Assembly (NCBI GenBank): GCA_017439185.1
Contig: JAFRTM010000015.1
Span: 1 to 63,324 of the forward strand
Direction of reading: 5' to 3'
DNA: 63,324 nt
From: Bacteroidales bacterium
GTDB taxonomy: Bacteria > Bacteroidota > Bacteroidia > Bacteroidales > P3
Shown here: in pieces, positions 1-27,634 of the stretch
Position numbering within the stretch: position 1 is the first letter of the stretch
How the letters are laid out: every line of letters starts with the position of its first letter
Position numbers and translations under genes: made by a program
The notes under the pieces: model-generated
The model's input: only the letters and a program-made list of their open reading frames with translations
What the model was told of the DNA's origin: nothing
Databases searched by the model: none

Positions 1-226
1 CAACCCCAAGGCCGAGATTTGTGCCTTCAAAGGTCTCACGCTGCGCATCGAATGCACCTTGGTGAAAGACAACCGCCCCGAAATCCAGAAGGCGTTGATT
101 GAAAAGATGCCCGTCCTGAAACCCGCCCTCGGCGAAAACGGCGAAAAAGGTGTGATGTATTACCTCAGCAACGCCACCGCCACATTCTACAAGATGATGG
201 AAACACAAGAAACAATCAAATTCTAA
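1..226 (+). CDS. C-terminal part of a split-barrel flavin protein, pyridoxamine 5'-phosphate oxidase-like (5' end outside window)
   Basis: The window opens inside this gene; about 74 codons remain, read in the frame starting at base 2 and ending at TAA 224-226. The residues (for example MYYLSNATATFYKM near the end) resemble the C-terminus of small pyridoxamine-phosphate-oxidase-like proteins of Bacteroidales, which bind FMN or heme in a split barrel. The start, the FMN-binding part and the promoter are not visible, so the exact activity cannot be given. The next gene starts 4 bases after the stop, so the two are probably co-transcribed. Confidence 0.5.
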   Translation, partial: NPKAEICAFKGLTLRIECTLVKDNRPEIQKALIEKMPVLKPALGENGEKGVMYYLSNATATFYKMMETQETIKF

Positions 227-230
227 AAAG

Positions 231-407
231 ATGAAAGAGCAAGTATTAAAAGCTATGCGCGAGGCCGGCAAGCCCGTCTCGGCTGGCGACGTCACCAAGG
301 CACTCGGTGCCGACCGCAAGGAAGTGGACAAGGCCTTCGCCGAGCTGAAGAAAGAGGGTGCCATCGTGTCGCCCATCCGCTGCAAGTGGGAGCCCGCCGC
401 AAAGTGA
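231..407 (+). CDS. Small winged-helix DNA-binding-like protein (58 aa)
   Basis: A 58-residue ORF starts 4 bases after the upstream stop. The sequence ([20 protein letters not shown], then an [13 protein letters not shown] segment and a short wing-like strand) fits a minimal winged helix-turn-helix: helix 1 about residues 2-12, helix 2 about 16-24, recognition helix about 27-41. Such one-domain proteins are usually annotated as transcriptional regulators in Bacteroides. It has no ligand domain. A terminator hairpin follows directly, making it the last gene of its unit. The regulatory role is inferred from fold only. Confidence 0.6.
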
Positions 408-2325: not shown

Positions 2326-2679
2326 ATGAACATCGAGGATTATCGCGACTACTGCCTTTCGTTGGGCGACGACGTAGAGGAACGGATGCCCTTTAGGGCT
2401 TTCTGCTACGCCAGCGAGGTGCTGGTCTTCTATGTCTATGGACACATGTTCTCTTTCTTCGACTGCAACAATTTCAGTGTTGTCACCCTCAAGTGCCAGC
2501 CCGACCGCATTGAAGAACTAAAGGAACAGCACTCCTGCATTGGCAAACCATTCAATGAGTCGCCCCGATACTGGATCGGCGTCGACCCTGCAATCGCCTC
2601 CGATGTCCTGTTGAGAGAGCTGACGCTGAACTCATACAACCTCGTCCGCGAGAAATACCATCAAAAAAATGAACCTTAA
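2326..2679 (+). CDS. MmcQ/YjbR family protein (117 aa)
   Basis: A 117-residue protein of the MmcQ/YjbR (CyaY-like fold) family. It has an N-terminal helix (MNIEDYRDYCLSL), an F..D strand with KCQPDRIEELKEQH, and a PRYWIGVD loop typical of the family. Family members are DNA-binding-like proteins of unknown role. The stop codon abuts the start of the next gene (2680), so translation is probably coupled. Function remains unassigned. Confidence 0.8.
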   Translation: MNIEDYRDYCLSLGDDVEERMPFRAFCYASEVLVFYVYGHMFSFFDCNNFSVVTLKCQPDRIEELKEQHSCIGKPFNESPRYWIGVDPAIASDVLLRELTLNSYNLVREKYHQKNEP

Positions 2680-3219
2680 ATGATAAATACACCCACAGGA
2701 AAGACATACGTCGGAAGCGACGAACTCTACGCTGAAGTGCAGCGCACTATGCGGCTCTGCGCCGAGATGAACAACGGCTGGCACACCGAGGCTGAGGTGC
2801 GCGAGTACCTGCGGCAAATCACCGCCTCGGAGGTGGACGATACCGTGCGCGTGTTCCCACCGTTCAACATCAATTATGGCCGTCGGACCACCTTCGGCAA
2901 GGGCAGTTTCGTTAACTTCGGCTGCACCTTCCTCGCCCTCGGCGGCATCACCATCGAGGAAGGAGTTTTCATCGCGCCGCACGTGGTGCTGGCCACCGAA
3001 TTCCATCCCGAAGACCCCGAGACAAGGCATTCGCTGCTCACCAAGCCCATCATCATCCGCCGCAACGCCTGGATTGGTGCCAACGCCACCATCCTCGCCG
3101 GTGTCACCATCGGCGAGAACGCCATCGTGGCCGCTGGCGCGGTGGTCAGCAAGGATGTACCCGACAATACGATAGTCGGCGGGGTGCCGGCGAAAGTGAT
3201 ACGTGAAATCAAAAAATAA
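2680..3219 (+). CDS. Sugar O-acetyltransferase, left-handed beta-helix (LacA/Maa type)
   Basis: A 179-residue acetyl-CoA-dependent O-acetyltransferase. The Mac domain (about 8-60) precedes hexapeptide repeats (about 65-170) such as GGITIEEGVFIAPHV and GVTIGENAIVAAGAVVSKDV. The likely catalytic His is H109 in ATEFHPED. The C-terminus shows the family hallmark DNTIVGGVPAKVIREIK. It probably acetylates a sugar or similar hydroxyl acceptor in the cytoplasm; the substrate is not evident. It follows the MmcQ gene with no gap and precedes the flavodoxin-type lipoprotein by 8 bases. A relic of a second copy of its tail lies at 5149-5236. Confidence 0.9.
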   Translation: MINTPTGKTYVGSDELYAEVQRTMRLCAEMNNGWHTEAEVREYLRQITASEVDDTVRVFPPFNINYGRRTTFGKGSFVNFGCTFLALGGITIEEGVFIAPHVVLATEFHPEDPETRHSLLTKPIIIRRNAWIGANATILAGVTIGENAIVAAGAVVSKDVPDNTIVGGVPAKVIREIKK

Positions 3220-3227
3220 AACAGACA

Positions 3228-4019
3228 ATGAAGAAGATAATGCTCCTCTGCGCGGCGGTGCTGACGCTGGTCGGCTGTCGGCAGGGCGGCGGAAACGACG
3301 ACAATCAACAACCCGAAACAATTAACAACACACATCAAATGGACACAAACTCACACAAAAGGATGGTAATCCTCAACGCCAGTCCCCGCAAGGACAAGAA
3401 CACTGCCACGCTCCTGAAGGAGGCGCAACGCGGCGCCGAAGAGGCGGGTGCCGAAGTGCAGTACATAGACCTTATCGACCTCCAGTTCACCGGCTGCCGC
3501 AGCTGCATGGCCTGCAAGCGGACGGGCAACCAGTGCGGCGGTGTCTGCGCCGTGCGCGACGACCTGCGTCCTGTGCTGGAGAGCATCCGCGATGCCGCCG
3601 CCCTCATCATCGGCTCGCCCATCTACTGGTCGTTCCCCACGGGGATGATGCGCAACGTCGTCGAGCGACTGCTCTTCCCGATGCTGAGCTACAACAGCGA
3701 CGGCAAGGGCGGCGTGCAGCGCTACCTCGACAAGCGGATGAACTGCGGCATCATCTACACGATGAACGTCACGCCCGAGGGCTACAAGGCGATGAACTAC
3801 GCCGCCCTCCACGAGCCCGACCGCGAGCACCTGGAGCAATACTATGGCCACTGCGAGGTCTACAACGCCTACGGCACCTGGCAGTTCTATCCCGACTACG
3901 AGAAATACGACCACAGCGCCGTCGACCTGGACGAGAAGCAATGGTACCGCGACAACCAGTGGCCCCGCGACAAGCAAGCCGCCTACGACATGGGCAAGCG
4001 GCTGGTGACGATGAACTGA
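3228..4019 (+). CDS. Flavodoxin-fold NAD(P)H-dependent oxidoreductase with lipoprotein signal
   Basis: A 263-residue protein. Residues 1-17 are a lipoprotein signal (MKKIMLLCAAVLTLVGC, lipobox LVGC), followed by a polar linker. From about residue 46 an NADPH-dependent FMN reductase/flavodoxin-2 domain starts (MVILNASPRKDKNTATLL). The CRSCMACKRTGNQCGGVC segment and GSPIYWSFPTGMM match iron-sulfur flavoprotein-like FMN reductases. Export of this fold is unusual, since FMN reductases are mostly cytosolic. An internal ATG at about 3339 (MDTNSHKRMV) could give a cytosolic form, and then the lipoprotein reading would be wrong. It lies in a tight accessory run. Confidence 0.8.
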   Translation: MKKIMLLCAAVLTLVGCRQGGGNDDNQQPETINNTHQMDTNSHKRMVILNASPRKDKNTATLLKEAQRGAEEAGAEVQYIDLIDLQFTGCRSCMACKRTGNQCGGVCAVRDDLRPVLESIRDAAALIIGSPIYWSFPTGMMRNVVERLLFPMLSYNSDGKGGVQRYLDKRMNCGIIYTMNVTPEGYKAMNYAALHEPDREHLEQYYGHCEVYNAYGTWQFYPDYEKYDHSAVDLDEKQWYRDNQWPRDKQAAYDMGKRLVTMN

Positions 4020-4032
4020 AACAGAAGGAACA

Positions 4033-4092
4033 ATGAACATATCAGTCTTCTGCGGGGCGTCGCTCACGAGCGCGGTGAAAATGCACGAATGA
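4033..4092 (+). pseudogene. Possible remnant of a LOG/TIGR00730-family gene start
   Basis: A 19-codon ORF starting 13 bases after the upstream stop reads MNISVFCGASLTSAVKMHE. The first nine residues match the opening strand of LOG-family (lysine decarboxylase-like, cytokinin-activating) Rossmann proteins. The rest is missing. Given other relics nearby, I read it as a deletion scar, with low confidence because the match is very short. Confidence 0.25.
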
Positions 4093-4131
4093 AACAATAA
4101 ATTGAATAGAAACAATAAACACAGACAGACA

Positions 4132-5100
4132 ATGAAGAAGATGTTTTATACCATGTCTATAGTATGCGCCATTGCAGCCTTGACCGCCTGCACAAGCAAA
4201 CAGCAACAAACAAAGGAGAACAATAGTATGAAGACCATCCGATTGATTTACCCACAGTGGCAGGGCGCAAGCGTCAGCCAGTGGATTCCCGAAGTGAAGA
4301 ACCCCGACGATGCCTCGCGCGGCTACTATCTCGGAGCGCAGCTGCTCGACTTCCTCGCCCCGAAGAACGACAGCCAGAAGACGGTCGTCGTGCCCGTGTC
4401 GCAGGAAGTGGGCGACCGATCGCCACAGGACGGTGTGATTGACCGCGACGTGATTGCCAGCCAGTCGGCAGCGGCAGTCAGCATCCTCGACGATGAGCAG
4501 CCCACGCGCATCATCACCCTCGGTGGCGAGTGCTCCGTCAGCGTGGTGCCGTTCACGTGGCTGGCCCGCAAATACGACGGCGACGTGGCCGTGCTGTGGA
4601 TTGACGCCCACCCCGACATCACGCTGCCCGGCGATGTCTATCCCGCCTACCACGCCATGGCCGTCACCGCCATGATGGGCAAGGGCGACGCGAAGATTCT
4701 CGCCACGCTGCCCGCACAGATTCCTGCCGACCGCTTCCTGTTAGTAGGTCTGCGCGACTGGGAGCGACAGCAGATTATCGACCGCCAGCAGGAGTACGGC
4801 ATGAAGCACCTCGGTGTGGCCGAAGTGCGCGACAGCAGCACCGCCATCCTCCAGTGGATTCAGCAGACGGGCGCGAAGCACGTGCTGATACATTTCGACA
4901 TGGACGTGCTCGACCCTGCCGAAATCATCCCCGCCGTCGGCGTGGTGAAGGACGGTCTGAAGATGGCCGATGTGGTGCGCATCATCAACGATGTCACTGC
5001 CGCCCACAGCGTTGAGGCTCTCACCATTGCCGAACCGATGCCCCGCACCGCCATCAACATCCGCAACATGCTTGGCGGCATCAAGATGTTTGAGGAGTGA
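4132..5100 (+). CDS. Arginase/ureohydrolase-family lipoprotein with an altered metal ligand
   Basis: A 322-residue protein from ATG 4132, which gives a clean lipoprotein signal (lipobox LTAC, Cys20); an in-frame ATG at 4102 only adds a polar extension. The ureohydrolase fold shows DAHPD, the metal loop FDMDVLDP, and a late AEPMPRT segment. In the first metal motif the usual GG-D/E-H reads GGEC, so the Mn-binding His is Cys. Arginases, agmatinases and formimidoylglutamases are normally cytosolic, so a lipid-anchored member is unusual. The substrate cannot be told from sequence. It may be a non-canonical hydrolase or a binding protein. Confidence 0.75.
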   Translation: MKKMFYTMSIVCAIAALTACTSKQQQTKENNSMKTIRLIYPQWQGASVSQWIPEVKNPDDASRGYYLGAQLLDFLAPKNDSQKTVVVPVSQEVGDRSPQDGVIDRDVIASQSAAAVSILDDEQPTRIITLGGECSVSVVPFTWLARKYDGDVAVLWIDAHPDITLPGDVYPAYHAMAVTAMMGKGDAKILATLPAQIPADRFLLVGLRDWERQQIIDRQQEYGMKHLGVAEVRDSSTAILQWIQQTGAKHVLIHFDMDVLDPAEIIPAVGVVKDGLKMADVVRIINDVTAAHSVEALTIAEPMPRTAINIRNMLGGIKMFEE

Positions 5101-5148
5101 TAGGACAAGCACCAGTTTTACAGATTTACACGCCTCCCCGTACCCATG

Positions 5149-5236
5149 CGCGGTGGTGAGCAAAGATGTACCAGACAACACGATTGTCGGCGGGGTGCCG
5201 GCAAAAACGATAAGAACAATTAAATCAAAAGAGTAA
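5149..5236 (+). pseudogene. Relic: C-terminal tail of a second O-acetyltransferase
   Basis: The frame ending at TAA 5234-5236 encodes AVVSKDVPDNTIVGGVPAKT and a short basic end, nearly identical to the C-terminus of the acetyltransferase at 2680-3219. About 48 of the first 53 bases agree with 3139-3191, and several differences are silent, so this looks like the tail of a separate acetyltransferase gene rather than a fresh copy. No start or beta-helix domain precedes it. It is a deletion remnant. Confidence 0.75.
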
Positions 5237-5242
5237 AATAGT

Positions 5243-5910
5243 ATGAAAGCAATGAATTGGTATCGAAACAATTGGTATTACGTGGGTGGCATCATCTTTG
5301 TCGTGCTTGCCATTGCTATGTCCCTTTTCGGCGAACACATCGACCCCGTGCGGAGAATTATGGTCGTGGGCTTTATGGGACTGCTCATCCATCAGTTTGA
5401 GGAGTATGTGCTGCCCAGCGGCTTCCCGATGGTGTGGAACATCGTCCAGTCGGGCGAACGCGAGCGCTACGACCGCTACCCGATGAACAAAAACACGTCG
5501 TTCGTCTGCAACGTGTGCATTATGTATCCGCTCTATATCGCGGGCATCATCTTCAGCGACTGCCATGTTTGGGGACTGATGCTGATGTTTTTCTCCATCG
5601 GACAGGTTGTCATCCACGGCATCATTTTCAACGTCAAGATGCGGCGGCTGTATAATCCCGGCGTGGCTACGTGTTGTTCATCCTCATCCCTGTGGGCATC
5701 TACTATATCTGGTATGTGGCGTCGCATTTCTCGTTGGCGTGGTGGCACTATGTGGCGGCGCTTGTCCTGCTGATGCCAGTGTCGTTCTGCAGCCTGATGC
5801 TGCCGATAAAACTGATGGCCGACAAGGACTCCAAGCACGTATGGCCAGCAGAGGAGTGCGAGAAGTTTCACGTGATGGAAAAGATGAAACAAATTGAATC
5901 GAAAAAATAA
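5243..5910 (+). pseudogene. HXXEE-domain membrane protein, frameshifted
   Basis: The first frame (from ATG 5243) encodes a hydrophobic protein with the family motif H50-Q-F-E53-E54 and several membrane segments. At about 5650-5670 it leaves the family pattern after MRRLYNP. The next frame then continues it (VLFILIPVGIYYIWYVASHF and on to MKQIESKK, stop 5910). One missing base near 5661 restores a single protein of about 222 residues, the family's usual size. This is either a real frameshift mutation or a sequencing error. HXXEE proteins are of unknown function. It sits 6 bases after the acetyltransferase relic and 6 before the next gene. Confidence 0.8.
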
Positions 5911-5916
5911 ACTGAA

Positions 5917-6453
5917 ATGAAGAAAGTAACCGTTATTTCAACCAGCCTCCGTCCGGGGTCGAACAGCCACGTGCTGGCGGAGCAGTTCGCCAAAGGTGCG
6001 AAAGCCGCAGCTCACGAGGTGGAACTCATCTCGCTGCGCGGCAAGGACATCAGGTTCTGCGTCGGCTGTCTGTCGTGCCAGCAGACAGGTGCCTGCATAT
6101 TCAAGGACGACGTGCCGGCCATTATGGAGAGTGTGCTCAACGCCGACGTGGTGTGCTGGGCGACGCCCATCTACTACTACGAGATGAGCGGCCAGATGAA
6201 GACTCTCATCGACCGTATGAACGCCATTTTCTCCAAGGACTACCGTTTCCGCGACATCTACCTGCTGACCACCGCTTTCGAGAACGAGGCACATGTCCCC
6301 GAGCGAGCCGAGAGCGGCCTGCAGGGCTGGATAGCCTGCTTTGGAAAGGCGACCCTTAAAGGCCACGTGTTCTGTGGCGGCGTGGGTGCCCCCAACGATA
6401 TAGCCGGCAACCCCAAGCTGCAACAAGCCTACCAGCTCGGGATGGGTGTCTGA
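5917..6453 (+). CDS. Flavodoxin-fold NAD(P)H-dependent oxidoreductase (cytosolic)
   Basis: A 178-residue FMN reductase-type protein. It starts at the first beta strand (MKKVTVISTSLRPGSNSHVL) with the FMN phosphate loop at SLRPGSNSH. The CVGCLSCQQTGAC segment and ATPIYYYEMSGQMKTLIDR are typical of iron-sulfur flavoprotein-like or NAD(P)H:quinone reductases. It differs from the gene at 3228 in lacking a signal peptide. It is the last gene of the plus-strand accessory run and faces the convergent redox operon 50 bases downstream. Confidence 0.88.
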   Translation: MKKVTVISTSLRPGSNSHVLAEQFAKGAKAAAHEVELISLRGKDIRFCVGCLSCQQTGACIFKDDVPAIMESVLNADVVCWATPIYYYEMSGQMKTLIDRMNAIFSKDYRFRDIYLLTTAFENEAHVPERAESGLQGWIACFGKATLKGHVFCGGVGAPNDIAGNPKLQQAYQLGMGV

Positions 6454-6505
6454 TCTCAATTAACAATACCTCCCACGCCCCCTACAACCGCCCGCCGCGA
6501 TTCGG

Positions 6506-7126
6506 CTATTTCAGCATCTGCTGTATGTCGCTTTCTATCGACTCGGGTGGTACCATCGGCTCGAAGCGGATGATGGTGTTGCCGTCGGCCGAGACGAGAA
6601 ACTTGCCAAAGTTCCACTTGATGGCGTCGCCTTTGTGGAACCCGCTTTTGGTCGTCTTGTGAATCATTGTCAGCTGCTTGGCGAACTTCTCGTAACCCTC
6701 GGGGTATCCCTTGAACGGAGCCTTTGCCTTGAGGAAGGTGTATAAGGGGCTTTCCTTCTTGCCGTTGACGTCTATCTTGTCGAACAGGGTGAAGGTGACG
6801 TCGTATTTGAGTGTGCAGAACTTCTCTATGGCCTCGTTGTCACCTGGCTCCTGTCCGAGGAACTGGTTGCACGGGAAGGCGAGTATCTCGAAGCCCTGAT
6901 CCTTGTATTTGCGATAGAGCGCCTCAAGTCCCTCGTATTGTGGCGTGAGGCCGCACTTGCTCGCCACGTTGACGATAAGCAGCACCTTGCCCTTGTAGGA
7001 GGCGAGGGAGACATCGTTGCCGTGGATGTCCTTAACGCTATAGTCGTAGATTGATTTGCCGTCTTGTGCGAAACCAGAGACGGAGAAGAGCAGCGCGAAG
7101 GCTGCGAGGAGAATCTGTTTTTTCAT
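6506..7126 (-). CDS. Glutathione peroxidase family protein, exported form
   Basis: A 206-residue thiol peroxidase. The start ATG at 7126 is chosen over a longer upstream frame because it gives a signal peptide (MKKQILLAAFALLFSVSGFA) just before the mature domain. The catalytic cysteine is C58 in NVASKCGLTP; the FPCNQF and KWNFGKF motifs complete the Cys/Gln/Trp/Asn site. In bacteria such enzymes usually use thioredoxin rather than glutathione. This copy should act in the periplasm, while its paralogue at 8087-8629 is cytosolic. It is the last gene of the minus-strand operon starting at 10733. Confidence 0.9.
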   Translation of the reverse strand: MKKQILLAAFALLFSVSGFAQDGKSIYDYSVKDIHGNDVSLASYKGKVLLIVNVASKCGLTPQYEGLEALYRKYKDQGFEILAFPCNQFLGQEPGDNEAIEKFCTLKYDVTFTLFDKIDVNGKKESPLYTFLKAKAPFKGYPEGYEKFAKQLTMIHKTTKSGFHKGDAIKWNFGKFLVSADGNTIIRFEPMVPPESIESDIQQMLK

Positions 7127-7149
7127 TTTTTTATGGGGGTGTGAAAAGG

Positions 7150-7605
7150 TTAATGATTGGTGTTTTTGCAAGCTTTGAACCAGCTGAAGAGGAACCGGAG
7201 TCCTGCCACGGCGAGGGCGGTGCCAAGCCCCGGATAGAAGCCTGCGAAGAATTCGACTGGCATGCCCGGCAGGTATTTCAGCCCTATGCCGAGCCCCATC
7301 ATGAAGGCTATGAGCAGGTAGCCGCGCAGGTCGAGAAAGGCGAGCAGCGACTTGCGTTCTTGGGGGAAATTGAGGATGCGAAGGGTGTAGCGTTTGACAA
7401 AGTTGTGGAACATCAAAGAGAAAGCCACAGCCACCGCCAAGGCCACCACCGCCAGCCACCAGACGCGGTCGGGATGCACCGCCGCCACGCCGCATAGGGC
7501 TTTGATGCCGGTGATGAATATCTTGATTCCTGGGGCGAGCCAGCAGAGCACCTGCATGAGTAGCAAGTGGTGGCGTCTGACGGGCAGAATGTGGTCGAAG
7601 GTCAT
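7150..7605 (-). CDS. Conserved four-helix membrane protein, unknown function
   Basis: A 151-residue protein with about four hydrophobic segments (about 17-45, 48-70, 92-115, 120-142) and basic loops (RRHH near residue 10, NFPQERKS near 80). I do not recognise a family. It lies 23 bases upstream of the exported glutathione peroxidase and 43 bases after the OhrR-type gene, in the same operon, so a link to envelope redox homeostasis is possible. That inference rests on position only. Confidence 0.7.
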   Translation of the reverse strand: MTFDHILPVRRHHLLLMQVLCWLAPGIKIFITGIKALCGVAAVHPDRVWWLAVVALAVAVAFSLMFHNFVKRYTLRILNFPQERKSLLAFLDLRGYLLIAFMMGLGIGLKYLPGMPVEFFAGFYPGLGTALAVAGLRFLFSWFKACKNTNH

Positions 7606-7648
7606 GAGGTTGGTTGTTTTATGTTTGGTGGGTGAAAAGGTGAGAACT

Positions 7649-8083
7649 CTATTTCAGCAGCTCAATGATGCCGTCGAGAGTGGAGGCACAGGAGCGCAGT
7701 TTGTCGAGCGGAAGGCTGTCCTTCGGCCAGTTGGCTGTGAGACAGAAGGGTATGTCCTTCGCCTTCGATTCCAGCAGTTTCCCCTTGTGCGAGAGTTCGA
7801 CAAGGGTTTGGCGCGAGTCAGCGGTGCCTTTGGTGCGGATTATGAACCCATCCTTCTCCATGCGCTGCAGAAGCGGCGTGAGGGTGTTGGATTCCAGCAG
7901 CAGCAGTTCCCCGATGGCGCCCACGGTGAGCTTGCGATGCTCCCAGAGTACGAGCATGACCAGGTATTTCGGATAGGTCAAGCCCAGCGGCTCGAGCAAC
8001 GGGCGGTAGGCCTGTGTGACGAGCCGCGTGGCAGAATAGAGTCGGAAACAGAGCTGGTTTTCGAGTTTCAGTTGTTCGTGCAT
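7649..8083 (-). CDS. MarR-family regulator, OhrR-type peroxide sensor
   Basis: A 144-residue winged-helix regulator. The N-terminus LENQLCFRLYSATRL carries the OhrR-type redox cysteine (C12), and the recognition region LTPLLQRMEKDGFIIRTKG with DSRQTLVELSHKG is typical of OhrR. Oxidation of this Cys by organic hydroperoxide normally releases the repressor from DNA. It is encoded 3 bases after the cytosolic glutathione peroxidase, so regulator and peroxidase are co-expressed. Candidate operators are the palindromes upstream of the operon (10766-10777 and 10842-10857). Confidence 0.9.
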   Translation of the reverse strand: MHEQLKLENQLCFRLYSATRLVTQAYRPLLEPLGLTYPKYLVMLVLWEHRKLTVGAIGELLLLESNTLTPLLQRMEKDGFIIRTKGTADSRQTLVELSHKGKLLESKAKDIPFCLTANWPKDSLPLDKLRSCASTLDGIIELLK

Positions 8084-8086
8084 CGC

Positions 8087-8629
8087 TTAGAGCATTGCTT
8101 CGATTTCGTTCTCAAACTCTTTGGGCTCGGTGGTGGGGGCGAAGCGCTTGACGGTGGTGCCGTCCTTGGCGACGAGGAATTTTGTGAAGTTCCACAGTAT
8201 GTCGCTCTCTTTCTTGGCTGTGTTGCTGATGCCTTTGAGCAGGGCGTGGGTGGCTTTAGCCTTGAGGCCTTTGTACTCTTCGGTCGGCGCTTGTGCTTTG
8301 AGCCATGTGAAGACGGGGTGCTCGTTTTCGCCGTTGACGTCGGTCTTCTTCATTATCTGGAAGGTGACGCCGTAGTTGAGGCGGCAGAACTCCTGAATCT
8401 CACCGTCGCTGCCCGGGTCCTGCTCCTTGAACTGGTTGCAGGGGAATCCGATGACAACGAGGCCGCGGTCGCGGTATTTCTCGTTGATGGCCTCGAGTCC
8501 GTCGAACTGGGGGGTGAAGCCGCACTTGCTGGCGGTGTTGACGATAAGCAGTACCTTGCCTTCGAATTGTTTGAAGTCAATCTCTTTGCCGTTGCTAGCG
8601 ATGGCTTTGTAGTCGTAAATTGTTGCCAT
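8087..8629 (-). CDS. Glutathione peroxidase family protein, cytosolic form
   Basis: A 180-residue thiol peroxidase without signal peptide. The catalytic Cys is C36 (NTASKCGFTP), followed by GFPCNQFKEQDPG and an ILWNFTKFLV segment holding the active-site Trp and Asn. Its stop lies 3 bases before the ohrR-type start. Its own start is 106 bases after the flavodoxin-like gene, so a secondary promoter there is possible, though no clear -7 box was seen. It should reduce organic hydroperoxides or H2O2, most likely with thioredoxin. Confidence 0.92.
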   Translation of the reverse strand: MATIYDYKAIASNGKEIDFKQFEGKVLLIVNTASKCGFTPQFDGLEAINEKYRDRGLVVIGFPCNQFKEQDPGSDGEIQEFCRLNYGVTFQIMKKTDVNGENEHPVFTWLKAQAPTEEYKGLKAKATHALLKGISNTAKKESDILWNFTKFLVAKDGTTVKRFAPTTEPKEFENEIEAML

Positions 8630-8735
8630 GATGAATGCTGTTTTTAATGATTATCTTTTTTTGTTTTTTCGGTTGAGTCTGTCCTCGCAGGTGTGTGTCC
8701 GGGGTGGGGCGTCCCGCTGGCTGCGGTAGCGGTCG

Positions 8736-9146
8736 TCACCGCTGTATTATCGATTGGGCAAACGTGCGGAAAGCCTCTATGTCCTCTGCGTTGGGGTGGC
8801 CGCTATGAAGAGGTCCCATCGAGCCTTTGCAACTGAACGACTTGTCGCATACCTTGATGCCGCGAGCCTCCAGGGCTTTGCGCATCTGCGGCACGGGAGA
8901 GTCGATGATTGCCGACGAGCCGAACAGGACGACCGTCTGCACCATCTCGGGGGTTAGGGTGCCGATGAATTCCGTGACGGCGCTGTTCACCTTGCCAAGG
9001 AAGAGGCCAGCACCCAGGAACAGCACCTCGACAGGTTGTCCCAGAGGCTCCGCCACCGTGGTGGCCTTCGCACCGACAATTTGTTCGATGGCTTCCGCCA
9101 TCTGTTTGGAGTGACCAAACTTGCTGAAATAACGTATTGCGTTCAT
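8736..9146 (-). CDS. Flavodoxin-domain protein
   Basis: A 136-residue flavodoxin-like protein. The FMN loop is expected at YFSKFGHSKQMAEAI; classical flavodoxins have T/S-G-N/T there, and GHSK is a variant. LFLGAGLFLGKVNS and VVLFGSSA match later strands. It likely carries low-potential electrons, perhaps to the neighbouring radical SAM enzyme (9 bases upstream in the same operon), which needs such a donor. That pairing is inferred from position. Confidence 0.82.
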   Translation of the reverse strand: MNAIRYFSKFGHSKQMAEAIEQIVGAKATTVAEPLGQPVEVLFLGAGLFLGKVNSAVTEFIGTLTPEMVQTVVLFGSSAIIDSPVPQMRKALEARGIKVCDKSFSCKGSMGPLHSGHPNAEDIEAFRTFAQSIIQR

Positions 9147-9155
9147 TTTTTTGTT

Positions 9156-10253
9156 TTATTCATTTAGCATTGATTCTATTTCGTCGCGGTGTTCGAACAG
9201 GGCGCAACCACCCGAGTGCTCGCCACCCACCAGCCGGGCTTTGCGTAACTTGTGGAAGAGAGGGGAACCGAGTGCCCCTTTGACTCCGAGTTCGACCACA
9301 TTGCTGTCGCTGAAGGGAGAGAACGGGCAGGGTTCGGCGCTTCCGTCAGGGCCGATGTGGAAAAATCCGCGACCAGCGGCCAGGCAGCCTCCAAGATGTT
9401 GTTCGTCGCCAGGGAAGGAGATGATGATGACATCCTTGTAGTGCTCGCGTTGATGGCTTTGTACCGATTCCATCTTCTTCAACTCCGCCTCGCCGAGTGC
9501 GAGGTGCTGGGTTGACGCTTCGGTGGGTACGTATTCGACATAGATGATGAGTTTGCATCCAAGGTTGCGCAGGTTGTCAACAAAAGCGTCGGAGGTCACG
9601 AGGTCGAAATTCTCTTTCGTGACGGTGATGCTTGTGCCGAAGAAAAGGTCCTCGTTGTGCAACATCTCTACCGAGAGCATGGCTCGTTTGTACATCCCTT
9701 TCCCTCGCCGCTCGTCGGTCGAGTGCTCCATGCCCTCGATGCTGATGACCGGCACCATATTGAGGTGCTGCTTGAGGAAAGAGATGTAGGAGGGGCCAAT
9801 GAGTGTGCCGTTGGTGAAGATGGGGAACACCATGTCCTCGACCTCGGCGGCACGTTCAAGGATGTCCCTGCGCATCATGGGTTCGCCTCCAGCCAGCAGT
9901 GCGAAATTGACGCCGAGAGAGGAGGCTTGCTCAAAAATGTCTTTCCATTGGTCGGGAGTGAGCGAGACTTTCTGATTTTCAGAGGCGTCGGCGGCGATGC
10001 CGTTGGAGCGGGCGTAGCACCCCTTGCAATGCAGGTTGCAGGAGGTGGAGATGGAGCATATAAGGAATGGCGGTATCTCCACCCCTTCGCCTTCTTTTAT
10101 CGCCGCTCGACGCTTTTCCGACTTCAGGAAGACTTGTTGCAACCTCCATACAGCCTTGGCTTCAATCGGATTGTTGAACACGTTGCGGTAAGCCTTCGTC
10201 ATGATTCGGCGGATGGCATCGCTCATGTAACTTTGAATGTTGTTTTCGCTCAT
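9156..10253 (-). CDS. Radical SAM protein with SPASM-like C-terminus
   Basis: A 365-residue protein from ATG 10253; the frame can start at a TTG 12 bases earlier, but ATG followed by MSENN is more likely. The [4Fe-4S]/SAM motif is C72-x3-C76-x2-C79 (SCNLHCKGCYAR). GGEP appears in strand 2 (LLAGGEPMMRRDIL). The C-terminal part has further cysteines (GGCLAAGR, EPCPFSPFSD, GGCALFEH) that fit an auxiliary cluster. The product is not assignable; similar stand-alone proteins are annotated only as radical SAM. It lies between a bacterioferritin-like gene (24 bases upstream) and a flavodoxin. Confidence 0.88.
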   Translation of the reverse strand: MSENNIQSYMSDAIRRIMTKAYRNVFNNPIEAKAVWRLQQVFLKSEKRRAAIKEGEGVEIPPFLICSISTSCNLHCKGCYARSNGIAADASENQKVSLTPDQWKDIFEQASSLGVNFALLAGGEPMMRRDILERAAEVEDMVFPIFTNGTLIGPSYISFLKQHLNMVPVISIEGMEHSTDERRGKGMYKRAMLSVEMLHNEDLFFGTSITVTKENFDLVTSDAFVDNLRNLGCKLIIYVEYVPTEASTQHLALGEAELKKMESVQSHQREHYKDVIIISFPGDEQHLGGCLAAGRGFFHIGPDGSAEPCPFSPFSDSNVVELGVKGALGSPLFHKLRKARLVGGEHSGGCALFEHRDEIESMLNE

Positions 10254-22902: not shown

Positions 22903-25662
22903 TTATCTTACTACCACCTTGTGTGCCGGGCTATTGCCCACTTTCACCATATAGACTCCGAGGTGAGGGACCTGAACCGAGAGCTCGCCGCCCTGTGGGC
23001 GAGTCTTGGAAATCAGCCTACCCGTTATGTCATAGACATAAACCGGCTCGTCTCCCGAGGTGGTAATCACTATACGATTCCCAAGTGTGGAAATATTATA
23101 GTTATCAGTTTCCACAGACGATATCCCCGCCGGTATCTGACGGAAATATGCCGTGTAGGTCGCGTTGCCAGTGACCGCCACTGTGCGAATACGGCTTGCG
23201 CTGTGGTCGTCACCCCAATAATCGAAAGCAAAGCCGCTCTTAGGCTCTGCCGAAATAGTGACACTTGTGCCATACTCGTATGTGCCACTGCCCGTAGTGG
23301 TTCCCATTGAGTTGTTGTGCGAATTCACGGTAATTGTATAGCTCTTCAGTGAGAACTGGGCTGTATAGGTTGCATTGCCCGTAACGGTTATTGTCCTTGG
23401 ATTCGATGTATTACCATCACTCCATTGCCTAAATTCATAACCATCATTTGGCGTTGCCGTTATGATTCTCTGTGAGTTGTAGGGGTATGTACCACCACCC
23501 GATGCAGTGCCCATTGTCGGGTCTTCAGAATTGACCGTTATAGTATAATCAATAGGGACAAAAGTTGCTGTATATGTAGCATTCCCCATCACCGTTACCG
23601 TTCTTGGGTTTGCCGTGTTGCCATCATCCCACTGCGTAAACCTGTATCCTTGATTGGCCGTAGCGGAAATTGTAGCAGTTGTGTTATATGCATATGTACC
23701 ACCACCCGAAACCGTTCCGTATGCCGGATTATTAGGTTGTACTGTTATTATATGTTGGTTAGAAAAATATGCAGTATATGTCACATTTCCTGTCACTGTT
23801 ACAGTTCGAGGATTGGACGTATTACCGTCATTCCACCCCGTAAATCTACAGCCTTGATTGGGTATTGCAGTTATCTGTGCCTGTGTTCCGTATGGGAACG
23901 TGCCACCTCCAGAAACACTGCCCAACGAAGCATTATCCGAAGCAACCGCAATTGTATAGTTTATTGGAGTGAAGTATGCAATAAGCGTCGTATCGCTAGT
24001 AACTGAGAGTGTATACGGATTTGACGTAGAACCATTGCTCCAATGGTCGAAAAGGTAACCATTATTTGCCGTAGCCCGAACTTGTGCATTTGAATTTGTG
24101 CATGATGGCTCTGTCACAATACTTACACTACCTCGTGTGCCATTGGACGAAGTCGCTGACAAAGTATACGGAAATTCCTCATTTATATTTGTAAAATAAG
24201 ACCAGTTAGTGTAGTATAAATCCAAGCAGCCACAAGGAACGTATACTGGAGTATTGGTCGGTACATTATAAAATGAAGGGTAACTTCCACTATTAGTCAT
24301 TACAGGAGGCGTTGTAGGTCTCAAATGAATCTCTGCTATTGATGTGCATCGTGCAAAAGCATAGTTTGATATTGTCGTAACCGAACTTGGAATAATAAGC
24401 GTTGTCAAATTATTGCAATTATAGAATGCAGCATTGGGTATCCGCGTCACATTATTGCCAATATTAAGCGTTGTAAATGACGTGCAACCATTAAACACAA
24501 GAGAATCGGTGGAAATATTACCACTTCCCATACTAGTGCAATTAGTCGCATTGTAATTCACCGTAGTGAGCCCTGTACAATTCGCAAACGCATTAGCATA
24601 TATGGCTGTTATTGATTCTGGAATCGTGACACTTGTCAGCGAAGAACAACCATAAAATGTGCGTCTATATATTTTCGTTAATGTATTAGGAAGCACCAGT
24701 GAACCACTCAATGAAGAACAACCAGAGAACGCATAAGCTGCTATATTTGTCACCGAACTAGGAATAACCAGTTCTCCTGTCAAATATGGACAGCCACGGA
24801 ATGCCCCCCAAGGAATATTCGTCACATTATTACCAATATTAAGCGTTGTGAAAGATGTGCAGCCATAAAATACAAGAGAATCATTGCTAGAATTACCGCT
24901 CCCCATTCCTGTACAATTAGTCGCATTAAAATTCACCACGGTGAGCCCTGTACAATTCGCAAATGCATTAGCATATATGACTGTTATCGATTCTGGTATC
25001 GTAACGCTTGTCAACGAAGAACAACCCTTAAATGAGAATCTACTGATTTTGGTTAATGAATTAGGCAGAACCAACGAACCACTTAATGACGAGCAGCCAT
25101 AGAATGCATAATTCCCTATCTTTGTCACCGAACTAGGAATAACCAGTTCTCCTGCTATATGTGAACAATTATAAAAAGCCACATTAGGAATATTTGTAAC
25201 ATTATTGCCAATATTAAGCGTCGTGAAAGACGTGCATCCATTAAACACAAGAGAATCGGTGGAAAAATAACCACTTCCCATACAAGTACAATTTGTCGCG
25301 TTGTAATTCACCGTAGTGAGCCCTGTACAATTCGCAAACGCATTAGCATATATGGCTGTTATCGATTCTGGTATCGTGACACTTGTCAACGAAGGACATC
25401 CTTTAAATGCCCATTTCCCGATTTTGGTAACATTATATGTTGTACCATTATATGTTACCGCTGATGGTATTTCCACCGCTCCCGAGAGGTTCGTGTATCT
25501 TGGATTTGACGTATTTTGATAGGTTACCATCACTGTGTGGGTTGAACTATTTGTTATATTGTAGAACAACGTCTTGCCCTCGTAGGTATAGGCGAAGTCG
25601 TATGCCCAAGACAGCTGCACCATCGCCAATATAAAAATGGTTATTGATAGTATCTTTTTCAT
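22903..25662 (-). CDS. BspA-type LRR / InlB-repeat surface protein with T9SS sorting domain (919 aa)
   Basis: Signal peptide at residues 1-20. Residues about 60-480 are BspA/TpLRR-like leucine-rich repeats (AFKGCPSLTSVTIPESIT) arranged in near-identical 125-residue blocks. Residues about 490-850 are about six 65-75-residue divergent InlB/Listeria-Bacteroides repeats (for example GYEFRQWSDGNTSNPRTITV). The last ~75 residues are a type A T9SS C-terminal domain (VYVYDITGRLISKTRPQGGE, ending MVKVGNSPAHKVVVR). It is therefore exported, sorted through the T9SS and anchored or released at the surface. Adhesin or substrate-binding roles are typical of such proteins. It is AT-richer than its neighbours and is third in an operon with two VWA lipoproteins. 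Confidence 0.92.
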   Translation of the reverse strand: MKKILSITIFILAMVQLSWAYDFAYTYEGKTLFYNITNSSTHTVMVTYQNTSNPRYTNLSGAVEIPSAVTYNGTTYNVTKIGKWAFKGCPSLTSVTIPESITAIYANAFANCTGLTTVNYNATNCTCMGSGYFSTDSLVFNGCTSFTTLNIGNNVTNIPNVAFYNCSHIAGELVIPSSVTKIGNYAFYGCSSLSGSLVLPNSLTKISRFSFKGCSSLTSVTIPESITVIYANAFANCTGLTVVNFNATNCTGMGSGNSSNDSLVFYGCTSFTTLNIGNNVTNIPWGAFRGCPYLTGELVIPSSVTNIAAYAFSGCSSLSGSLVLPNTLTKIYRRTFYGCSSLTSVTIPESITAIYANAFANCTGLTTVNYNATNCTSMGSGNISTDSLVFNGCTSFTTLNIGNNVTRIPNAAFYNCNNLTTLIIPSSVTTISNYAFARCTSIAEIHLRPTTPPVMTNSGSYPSFYNVPTNTPVYVPCGCLDLYYTNWSYFTNINEEFPYTLSATSSNGTRGSVSIVTEPSCTNSNAQVRATANNGYLFDHWSNGSTSNPYTLSVTSDTTLIAYFTPINYTIAVASDNASLGSVSGGGTFPYGTQAQITAIPNQGCRFTGWNDGNTSNPRTVTVTGNVTYTAYFSNQHIITVQPNNPAYGTVSGGGTYAYNTTATISATANQGYRFTQWDDGNTANPRTVTVMGNATYTATFVPIDYTITVNSEDPTMGTASGGGTYPYNSQRIITATPNDGYEFRQWSDGNTSNPRTITVTGNATYTAQFSLKSYTITVNSHNNSMGTTTGSGTYEYGTSVTISAEPKSGFAFDYWGDDHSASRIRTVAVTGNATYTAYFRQIPAGISSVETDNYNISTLGNRIVITTSGDEPVYVYDITGRLISKTRPQGGELSVQVPHLGVYMVKVGNSPAHKVVVR
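24561..25399. repeat. 375-bp direct repeats inside the LRR gene
   Basis: Near-identical segments recur with a 375-base period, as seen from equivalent points at 24561, 24936 and 25311 (shared AGCCCTGTACAATTCGCAAA). Each unit encodes 125 residues of LRR. Such repeats can expand or contract by recombination. Confidence 0.85.
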
Positions 25663-25698
25663 AATTAATAATCAATTCTTAATTAATAATCAATTCTT
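25663..25698. repeat. Tandem 18-bp duplication at the LRR gene start
   Basis: The unit AATTAATAATCAATTCTT occurs twice, head to tail (25663-25680, 25681-25698), abutting the start codon of the LRR gene on the minus strand. It replaces the usual initiation region. Confidence 0.9.
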
Positions 25699-25760: not shown

Positions 25761-26483
25761 TTAATTAAGTAACGCCTCCACAAAACCTTTAGCTGCGTTC
25801 TGCATATTGCCAAAGTCATTGCCAAGCGATGTTGTGCAGTCAAGCACAAGAATAATTAGTGTGCTGCTTTTCTCTTCATTATTGATCTTGCTTGCAATTG
25901 TTACAAACGCTTGCTGGACTTGACCCATATAGGACATATCAAAAACATTACTATTGTCGCTTGATAAACTTCTTAACGATTCTATAAAGACATTAGCATC
26001 AGAAACATCATTGCCCCTCAATCCAATTGAGTATGCAGAGACATTAACCCCATGGATTGGTGTTAGAATACGGCTATGTAAAGCCTCTCTGTATTCCACA
26101 TTATTGCTATAATGTTCTGGATTGAGCGCATCATCAAGGGAGCAATTGTCAAAACCGTCTGTAAACGTAACCAGTACTACATTTTTAAGATTTGGCGGCA
26201 TATCATATTCATTCAGCATATTCAACGCCATATAGTCTGCATAATATAGCCCCGTTCCGTTACCCATTGTTAAATTGTCAATAAAACGATTGAAATCGCT
26301 TTGGTTGGATTTTGTCAGCAACGAAATGTCTTTTACATCTTGTTCATAGTTGAACCCAATAATACCAAGATATATACCACAAGAATCCACCATCTCCGGA
26401 TCCGCCACATCGTCTTTTTTGCAGCCATAGAACGCTGACAATGCAAATGCTATAAGACTCAACAATAAGAATATCTTACGCAT
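25761..26483 (-). CDS. Lipoprotein with a circularly permuted VWA-like domain (240 aa)
   Basis: Lipoprotein signal with FYGC, Cys21. The mature part starts at what would be strand 2 of a VWA fold (CGIYLGIIGFN). It runs through a GTGLYYAD loop (MIDAS Thr position), VVLVTFTDGFDN (strand 4 and its metal Asp) and VNVSAYSIGLRG (strand 5), and a last helix. After a short charged linker (NNEEKSS) it ends with LIILVLDCTTSLG plus a helix, which is strand 1 with a D-x-T-x-S MIDAS motif and helix 1. The order 2-3-4-5-6-1 means a circular permutation. It probably binds a divalent metal and a protein ligand at the cell surface. It is a paralogue of the gene 11 bases upstream, and AT-rich. Confidence 0.7.
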   Translation of the reverse strand: MRKIFLLLSLIAFALSAFYGCKKDDVADPEMVDSCGIYLGIIGFNYEQDVKDISLLTKSNQSDFNRFIDNLTMGNGTGLYYADYMALNMLNEYDMPPNLKNVVLVTFTDGFDNCSLDDALNPEHYSNNVEYREALHSRILTPIHGVNVSAYSIGLRGNDVSDANVFIESLRSLSSDNSNVFDMSYMGQVQQAFVTIASKINNEEKSSTLIILVLDCTTSLGNDFGNMQNAAKGFVEALLN

Positions 26484-26494
26484 AATCCTTTCCT

Positions 26495-27634
26495 TTATTT
26501 CTTAGTAATAATCTTCTTTTTATTGCTGGACGCGTTAAGTAGTGTCTCTATAAAGCTTTTTCCGGCACGCTGCATATCTTGAAATTTGTCTGCACCGAGG
26601 GATCTTGTGCAGTCCAGAACAAGCATAATCATCGCACTGCTCTTCTTTTCGACTGGCTTAACGTCTTGATCCGGATGAAATTCGGCCTCAATGTGCCAGT
26701 TGGGGTCTTCTATCCAACACTCCAAACTTTTAATATCATTGGGATCGACATTGCTGCCATCGGAATATTTCATATCTGGGAAAGTAAAATAAACACCTTT
26801 ATAAGTTATTGAGTCGGAATGCAAAGTTGCTGTCCTTTCCTGAAGTCCATAGTAGTTGATATCTTCAAGAATTCTACCGCCTTCGACACGTCTATATGTT
26901 GCCTGTATATACGCAGGGGGATTTGAGCGAACATTAAACCTAATATGCATTAAATCATCATAACCACCTCGAACCGCTACAACCATATCAACCATGGAAC
27001 TTAGGGTATGGAGACTATCGGCTATATCGTTAAATGTTTGTAGCACTTGGTTCATATTGTCAACGAGATAAACGTTATTATTGTCGCTGGAAATATTCCT
27101 TAATGTATTAGTGAATTTTTCATTATCTTGACTTGCCCCCTCACTCATCAATCCAATGGAGAACGACGAAACATTTAATCCGTGAATCTGTTGGTTGAGA
27201 ATGCGGTTGTGTATGGCATCACCATACCCTTCTCCATAATGCTCTGGATCGTGTATGACACCGGCATCATTGTTTGTAGATTCGTTGTCAAGACCATCGG
27301 TAAAAGTGACCAAAAATACATTCTGTAACTCTGGCGGTTTACTGTATGCTTGCATCATATTCAAAGCCGTGTAGTCAGCATAATACAAGGCTGTGCCATC
27401 GTTGTCGAATGTAAAGTTGTCGATAAACGAGTAAAATTCATTTTTGTTGGCGTTGGTCAATTGGCAGATGTCTTTTGTCTGCAAAAAGAAGTTGAAGCCT
27501 ACTACTCCAAGATAGATTCCACAGGGGTCCACCTCTTCGGGTTCTGGTGTCGGGGAGGTCGGTTCGTCTTTTTTGCAGCCGTAAAACAACGACATTGTAA
27601 GTGCGATTGCCAATAAATAGATAGTTTTGCGCAT
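26495..27634 (-). CDS. Larger lipoprotein with a permuted VWA-like domain and an inserted beta domain (379 aa)
   Basis: Start ATG 27634 gives a lipoprotein signal with FYGC, Cys20; the longer frame upstream lies in the leader RNA. The mature protein repeats the order of its neighbour: IYLGVVGFNF, then DGTALYYAD, VFLVTFTDGLDN, VSSFSIGL and a final helix. It ends with AMIMLVLDCTRSLG and a helix, the expected first strand and MIDAS-like loop. Between last helix and C-terminal strand 1 sits an extra ~110-residue beta-rich segment (about 228-335, with RGGYDDLMHIRFNVRSN and ECWIEDPNWHIEAEF) absent from the 240-residue paralogue. It heads the operon behind the structured leader. A surface-exposed binding role is inferred. 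Confidence 0.7.
   Translation of the reverse strand: MRKTIYLLAIALTMSLFYGCKKDEPTSPTPEPEEVDPCGIYLGVVGFNFFLQTKDICQLTNANKNEFYSFIDNFTFDNDGTALYYADYTALNMMQAYSKPPELQNVFLVTFTDGLDNESTNNDAGVIHDPEHYGEGYGDAIHNRILNQQIHGLNVSSFSIGLMSEGASQDNEKFTNTLRNISSDNNNVYLVDNMNQVLQTFNDIADSLHTLSSMVDMVVAVRGGYDDLMHIRFNVRSNPPAYIQATYRRVEGGRILEDINYYGLQERTATLHSDSITYKGVYFTFPDMKYSDGSNVDPNDIKSLECWIEDPNWHIEAEFHPDQDVKPVEKKSSAMIMLVLDCTRSLGADKFQDMQRAGKSFIETLLNASSNKKKIITKK

Follow-up and report, generated by a model that had tools for sequence, protein, structure and literature searches.

Two neighbouring lipoproteins of a Bacteroidales bacterium with an apparently circularly permuted VWA domain

The locus described here raises the question of how a domain is to be understood when the strand that should open it stands at the end of the chain. 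The window, meaning the whole 63,324-nucleotide stretch analysed (contig JAFRTM010000015.1 of a Bacteroidales bacterium, assembly GCA_017439185.1), carries two adjacent lipoprotein genes, whose products are referred to as L (379 residues) and S (240 residues). The VWA (von Willebrand factor A) domain has a Rossmann-like fold with the sheet order 3-2-1-4-5-6. According to the initial annotation, the mature parts of both proteins start with strand 2 of such a domain and finish with its strand 1 and helix 1. L and S can be explained, with a probability of approximately 0.88, as VWA domains with a lipid anchor in which a circular permutation has opened the chain between helix 1 and strand 2; this estimate applies to the architecture and not to the function. 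The chain would run from strand 2 to helix 6 and then pass through a beta domain in L or a 4-residue joint in S; strand 1 and helix 1, with the D-x-S/T-x-S loop between them, would form its end. The features concerned are collected in Table 1.

The motifs on which the initial annotation relied are all present. IYLG(I/V)(I/V)GFN, at residues 37-45 of S and 40-48 of L, is followed by GTxLYYAD and TFTDG(F/L)DN, and I(I/M)LVLDCT(T/R)SLG is found near the C-terminus of both proteins, which are 56% identical across their aligned part. The start of L is taken to be the ATG before MRKTIYLLA, which gives 379 residues, because the lipoprotein signal peptide fits that start; the program's list of open reading frames (ORFs) begins at an earlier ATG and gives 436 residues.

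Comparison with Pfam places the two parts of the domain in swapped order. Residues 36-201 of L correspond to positions 34-171 of PF00092 (whole-protein E 1.3e-7; 32.5 bits, above the curated cut-off of 23.8), and residues 336-365, further along the chain, correspond to positions 1-35 of VWA_2 (whole-protein E 0.0072, under the VWA_2 cut-off). In a scan of 15 permuted relatives, a VWA family was matched at E <= 1 in nine. The start of the profile, its first 32-39 positions or so, lies at the C-terminal side of the module in L019 (residues 393-422), L035 (396-427), L036 (355-385), L041 (361-389), and L074 (546-577), with E 0.0059-0.22. The remainder, from about position 34, lies N-terminally in L010, L012, L021, and L062, and both halves are visible in L019. 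The canonical relatives L014, L042, L051, L055, L082, and L086 each show a single collinear stretch of PF00092 from position 1, 2, or 3, and the canonical L045 shows one VWA_2 stretch, 1-106.

The same order emerges from a hidden Markov model (HMM) that was built from 22 canonical-order VWA domains alone and searched against 35 permuted ORFs and 35 shuffled controls, so that its E-values apply to a search of 70 sequences. In 34 of the 35 permuted ORFs the body of the domain (about positions 38-212, E 2e-34 to 4e-12) precedes the piece that matches positions of about 3-43 (E 8e-11 to 2e-3). Canonical order was found by this model in none of the 35, L050 showing the body alone, and among the 35 shuffled sequences there was one match below E 0.1. 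For S, residues 41-211 correspond to positions 41-209 (E 2e-32) and residues 216-246 to positions 5-36 (E 1e-7), counted in a stop-to-stop frame of 246 residues from which 6 must be subtracted to obtain the numbering of S. For L, the body gave E 2e-34 and the strand-1 piece E 7e-10. Because strands 2-6 stand ahead of strand 1 in 34 of these 35 ORFs, S and L are filed as a permuted variant of the VWA domain. The permutation proposed in the initial annotation is supported by comparison with the Pfam VWA models for L and several relatives, with the canonical HMM, and with close relatives of canonical order. Two of its lengths need to be corrected: the joint in S, given as about 7 residues, is 4 residues by the canonical HMM, and the insert in L, given as about 110 residues, is about 119 residues between the HMM pieces.

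Relatives of the two proteins were collected from genome samples that overlap. A profile of the permuted form (A1) matched 20 of 393 genomes of the order and 27 of 149 genomes of the window's own family; in other families it matched 5/31, 49/104, and 2/8 genomes. In a sample of the phylum it matched 2 of 395 genomes, the window's genome and one weak match. With protein L as query, 11 of 295 genomes of the order were matched, and 2 of 296 of the phylum, again the window's genome and one weak match. No relative was found in four scans of viral contigs or in one search of plasmids. L004, the lone locus of one contig scan, was dropped, as it matches only residues 7-38, the signal-peptide region. 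The first 89 loci reduce to 60 distinct ORFs, namely 35 permuted (30 genomes; L041 was assigned by hand), 17 canonical, and 8 that were not classed and were dropped as fragments or weak matches (L080, L017 twice, L022 twice, L043, L045, and L006). A search for homologues with the same strand order, which the initial annotation had called for, therefore returned 35 distinct ORFs from 30 genomes. L041 (G676:C34) is a very divergent permuted relative with a barely recognisable strand 2 and a long branch in the 57-row tree described below. L074 (G867:C31) and L075 (G861:C78) carry the permuted VWA domain within open frames of 2525 and 2752 residues, with fibronectin III repeats in the scanned part of L074.

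The sampled genomes are mostly in many contigs, and the apparent order could in principle come from an assembly error, a frameshift, or wrong gene boundaries. The same order is nevertheless present in 35 distinct open frames with near-constant spacing, and this recurrence refutes such an explanation, the probability of which is negligible. It is also very unlikely that these proteins are degenerate fragments, in which the C-terminal piece is a decayed remnant of the beginning of a second VWA domain, the main domain having lost its own first strand or had it replaced. Decay does happen in the family, as the loss of the metal-site motifs from L050 indicates. However, the strand-1 piece with D-x-S/T-x-S is kept in 35 of 36 permuted rows, and 20 of the 35 permuted proteins end no more than 9 residues after helix 1. 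Moreover, homologues with an additional N-terminal strand 1, which the initial annotation had named as a reason to abandon its proposal, were looked for among the 60 distinct ORFs, and none carries two strand-1 pieces; the canonical relatives have theirs at the N-terminal side only.

The spacing of the two pieces bears on a further explanation, namely that strand 1 and helix 1 at the C-terminus are donated to the VWA domain of a neighbouring molecule, so that head-to-tail assemblies are formed in place of self-contained permuted domains. Of the 32 long forms, 31 have 119-130 residues between the halves and the remaining one, L041, has 168, and the genes of L and S adjoin, as such an exchange of strands might lead one to expect. 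On the other hand, the short distance between the pieces in S (4 residues) and L021 (11 residues) favours intrachain pairing, and the better of two AlphaFold2 models of S, although low in overall confidence, places strand 208-215 and helix 223-239 in the monomer, in blocks with a predicted local distance difference test score (pLDDT) of 67-83. Exchange between molecules is accordingly given a slim chance.

Several results weigh against the permuted architecture. Both models of S are of low confidence: S alone gave a mean pLDDT of 48.6 and a predicted template modelling score (pTM) of 0.54, and S with L as a second row gave 59.7 and 0.66. In the latter, residues 1-53, strand 2 included, have pLDDT < 50. 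Foldseek with either of these weak models returned nothing at E <= 0.001, and no row named VWA was present among the best 50 matches of either. No Pfam family was matched by S, nor by S constructs in native, rotated, two wrongly rotated, and tail-shuffled form. In L, rotation turns the PF00092 match into a single stretch, 2-171, with the score rising only from 32.7 to 33.2 bits. Among the 15 permuted relatives, L009, L034, L047, L050, L066, and L077 have no VWA family at E <= 1, and a VWA cut-off is passed by L021 and L062 only. A doubled S matched ten chance families in Pfam, with VWA not among them.

Foldseek is a sequential aligner, and a permuted match could therefore escape it. In the better model of S, helix 186-203 is followed by a 4-residue turn, strand 208-215, and helix 223-239, as permutation predicts, at a confidence too low to weigh for or against the fold. 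The effect of rotation was also followed in the PDB by means of two profiles of the same pieces, taken from 8 of the 36 permuted domains, one rotated into canonical order and the other unrotated. The rotated profile matched 17 PDB sequences at E <= 1, headed by complement factor B (E 0.005, stretch 2-114); alignments over 2-197 were obtained with seven further factor B sequences (E 0.15-0.45). The unrotated profile gave 8 matches with a best E of 0.1, and its best factor B stretch was the strand-1 piece alone. The improvement by rotation is real but modest.

The closest comparison for the permuted proteins (type A) is offered by relatives of type B (L014, L015, L018, and L082 among them), which have the same VWA and beta domains, alignable column by column. 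Unlike S and L, type B has the canonical VWA order, with the beta domain split across both ends of the module; the insert of L is unbroken. In all 14 full-length type B ORFs, the type A profile is matched at 212-220..345-347 and then at 25-28..199-231, with 0-7 residues between the pieces, so that helix 1 runs into strand 2 as in other VWA domains. The mature type B protein starts within the beta insert (KYYIEGDY is the counterpart of the third insert strand in type A), and its VWA domain is followed by the first two insert strands (YVPPRFKGKVRWTLD in L014; counterpart in L012 IPGQSNGTVIRFTFD), strands that are assigned from alignments A1 and A2 and may be regarded as inferred. On the evidence of sequence, the two-domain ring is one and the same in types A and B, which are circular permutations of each other. 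The type B tail beyond these strands looks by eye like an outer-membrane barrel; no barrel family was above cut-off in the four type B proteins scanned. The beta-insert part of the family profile has a weak match to BsuPI 3isy_A (E 0.0095).

Among the 27 matching genomes of the window's family, 2 have the permuted form (G000 and G1015, of the same genus), 24 the canonical form, and G1046 the body alone, and close relatives of canonical order occur even within the genus of the window. The window's genome, about 92% complete, yielded no type B match. Both types are present together in four genomes (G634, G847, G863, and G1052).

The history of the two forms was approached through unrooted trees of rotated VWA sequences, drawn at the midpoint. 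In a 57-row tree the 35 permuted rows form a single group (support 98/91), and in a 67-row tree the 34 permuted rows form one side of a branch (100/100). The larger tree is without L006, L025, L026, L041, L045, L050, and L058, all present in the smaller one, and includes 17 of the 19 new loci L110-L128, L114 and L115 having been missed by the motif rule. Type B is one group in the 57-row tree (86/77) and not in the 67-row tree. The permuted group excludes the distant canonical VWA domains, which makes the canonical order the likely ancestral state. The simplest reading is that the permutation probably arose once, and the branch is consistent with a single event. An ancestral VWA domain sitting inside a beta domain would have been permuted on that occasion, with the canonical-order relatives keeping the old layout. 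Tandem duplication followed by truncation at both ends would yield the permuted order; partly duplicated intermediates were found in 0 of the 60 ORFs, so that this route is hypothetical.

The beta domain would have been lost from later copies. On the 57-row tree the short form requires three changes, at least two of which are forced by well-supported branches. The placement of S is weak, with L009 in the 57-row tree (85/27) and with L in the 67-row tree (94/53). An insert-less copy exists beside a long one in three genomes, namely the window's, G487, and G395. In G487 (L094, G487:C104, about 2350-10220), a three-gene block occurs twice, with the beta insert in one VWA copy and not in the other; it consists of a permuted VWA gene, a small lipoprotein-like gene, and a gene that is barrel-like by eye. 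In G395 (L020/L050, G395:C13), the insert-less permuted copy is on a separate contig from the long one and has lost the three metal-site motifs, and is thus a probable non-metal-binding relative as judged from its motifs.

The residues of the metal ion-dependent adhesion site (MIDAS) have otherwise been kept. Every long permuted row (33 of 33) has all three motifs (D-x-S-x-S, T, and D), as have 2 of the 3 short ones; S and L have the D-x-T-x-S form. The Thr rule is too strict for types B (14/30) and C (2/8), and the counts there are not relied on. The conservation of the motifs in the permuted rows argues that the permuted domain may still bind metal. Since strand 1 is last in the chain, the site would be put together from both chain ends, with Thr and the Asp of the DG motif supplied by the N-terminal half and D-x-T-x-S by the last 35 residues or so. 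In the VWA fold the loop between helix 1 and strand 2 is on the face opposite the metal, like the normal termini, and a lipid anchor attached there would therefore leave the metal face directed away from the membrane.

The optimal export signal of Capnocytophaga surface lipoproteins is reported to be C-X-K-(D/E)2-X (PMC5080379), and the mature starts of S (CKKDDV) and L (CKKDEP) fit this pattern, as does L110. An exact fit is found in only 4 of 35 permuted rows under a crude lipobox rule, so that a surface location throughout the family is putative. The tails of other permuted members contain fibronectin III, FGE-sulfatase-like, Fib_succ_major, or InlB B-repeat domains, in keeping with proteins of the cell surface. 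From the lipobox, the export-like signal, and the MIDAS residues, an outer-membrane, probably surface-exposed domain that binds a ligand in dependence on divalent metal is suggested for L and S, at what are considered even odds.

On the minus strand the order is L, 11 bp, and then S, with Shine-Dalgarno-like purine runs ahead of both. A gene for a leucine-rich-repeat protein follows S after 98 bp on the same strand, and the three genes are possibly one transcription unit, judging from their arrangement. A scan for promoters and terminators gave counts inside the range of shuffled sequence. The leucine-rich-repeat protein has five divergent InlB B-repeat stretches, a repeat family that also forms the tail of the permuted relative L047, and its C-terminus resembles a signal for sorting in secretion. 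At 25658-25693 there are two direct repeats of 18 bp (TTCATAATTAATAATCAA, second copy 94%), which lie at the start of its gene and in the gap ahead of it. A role in adhesion, exercised jointly with this co-directional protein, is a guess.

The neighbourhood provides little help with the function. The comparison took in part of the window and, from 15 other genomes, 20 loci, of which 16 have a permuted gene and 4 have type B. Apart from synteny of close relatives (L090/L096 and L104/L105) and scattered pairs, no recurring neighbour was found across these loci, and none points to a function. Six loci of the window's family (L129, permuted, and L130-L134, type B) have a gene order unlike that of the window. 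Apart from VWA genes, the only matches were single ones, to a methyltransferase-like gene in L133 (37%) and to a leucine-rich-repeat gene and another gene in L134.

Table 1. Positions in the window of the two permuted VWA lipoprotein genes, their parts, and the adjoining gene
Feature	Position	Strand	Basis
S, 240-aa insert-less permuted VWA lipoprotein	25761..26483	-	ORF; canonical-VWA HMM, body then strand-1 piece
S signal peptide, lipobox Cys21; mature start C-K-K-D-D-V	26421..26483	-	sequence
S body, strand 2 (GIYLGIIGFN) to helix 6	25875..26378	-	canonical-VWA HMM 41-209, E 2e-32
S MIDAS Thr77	26253-26255	-	
S MIDAS Asp109	26157-26159	-	
S C-terminal strand 1 and helix 1	25764..25865	-	canonical-VWA HMM 5-36, E 1e-7
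S D-C-T-T-S	25827-25841	-	
L, 379-aa permuted VWA lipoprotein with beta insert	26495..27634	-	ORF; PF00092 and VWA_2 in swapped order
L signal peptide, lipobox Cys20; mature start C-K-K-D-E-P	27575..27634	-	sequence
L body, strand 2 to helix 6	26990..27520	-	PF00092 34-171; canonical HMM 42-211, E 2e-34
L MIDAS Thr81	27392-27394	-	
L MIDAS Asp113	27296-27298	-	
L beta insert, about 115-119 aa, uninterrupted	26642..26989	-	gap between HMM pieces
L C-terminal strand 1 and helix 1	26534..26641	-	VWA_2 1-35; canonical HMM 4-40, E 7e-10
L D-C-T-R-S	26600-26614	-	
919-aa BspA-type leucine-rich-repeat protein	22903..25662	-	LRR_5 E 1.1e-97, Flg_new_2 E 4.3e-52

Compared with known systems, the proteins share homology across the whole domain with the VWA or integrin I-like domain (PF00092, PF13519), together with the D-x-S-x-S, Thr, and Asp of the MIDAS; the difference is that strand 1 and helix 1 come last here, the chain beginning at strand 2 and ending after helix 1. 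The type C lipoproteins L042 and L044 have a lipobox-like start and a distant two-piece match to the type A profile, but unlike S and L they are of canonical order, PF00092 being matched in L042 as a single stretch, 1-166. TIGR03436 (acidobact_VWFA), a VWA domain with an upstream segment, is matched in L043 and L055, both under the cut-off, and has no match in S, L, or the permuted L010, L012, L034, and L066.

Circularly permuted GTPases (YRG/YlqF and cpRAS; PMC2430557) are another natural permutation of a common alpha/beta fold in which the order of the motifs is altered and the residues are kept. Their fold and function differ, and the passages on cpRAS proteins in that source do not present their VWA domain as permuted. 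No permuted VWA domain was found among the papers listed in a literature search that included few subscription papers, so that a description elsewhere is possible. Four papers on circular permutation do not mention Willebrand, and in three of them the main text has neither vWA nor integrin. It is a long shot that this is the first natural permutation of a VWA or integrin I domain to be described and that it has a mechanical meaning, with the chains of L and S, or of L alone, completing each other's metal sites in a surface assembly or switch. On that view, the last 35 residues would supply half of the metal site, which would form only on docking of the chain end, and such docking could take place between molecules.

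Profile libraries overlook permuted VWA domains or catch half of them, as can be seen from S, which has no Pfam match, and from the 6 of 15 relatives without a VWA family. Few protein-binding domains are as widespread as the VWA domain, and the presence of canonical and permuted forms of one two-domain ring in the same genus, and together in the four genomes, provides a clean evolutionary pair. The usual explanation of VWA allostery is that the last helix moves, and this helix is the moving part of integrin I domains. If the mechanical reading is true, the lipid anchor would exert its tension on strand 2 and not on the last helix. A natural permutant, in which the metal-site residues are kept and the chain ends are moved, makes it possible to ask which connections the allostery of the VWA domain requires.
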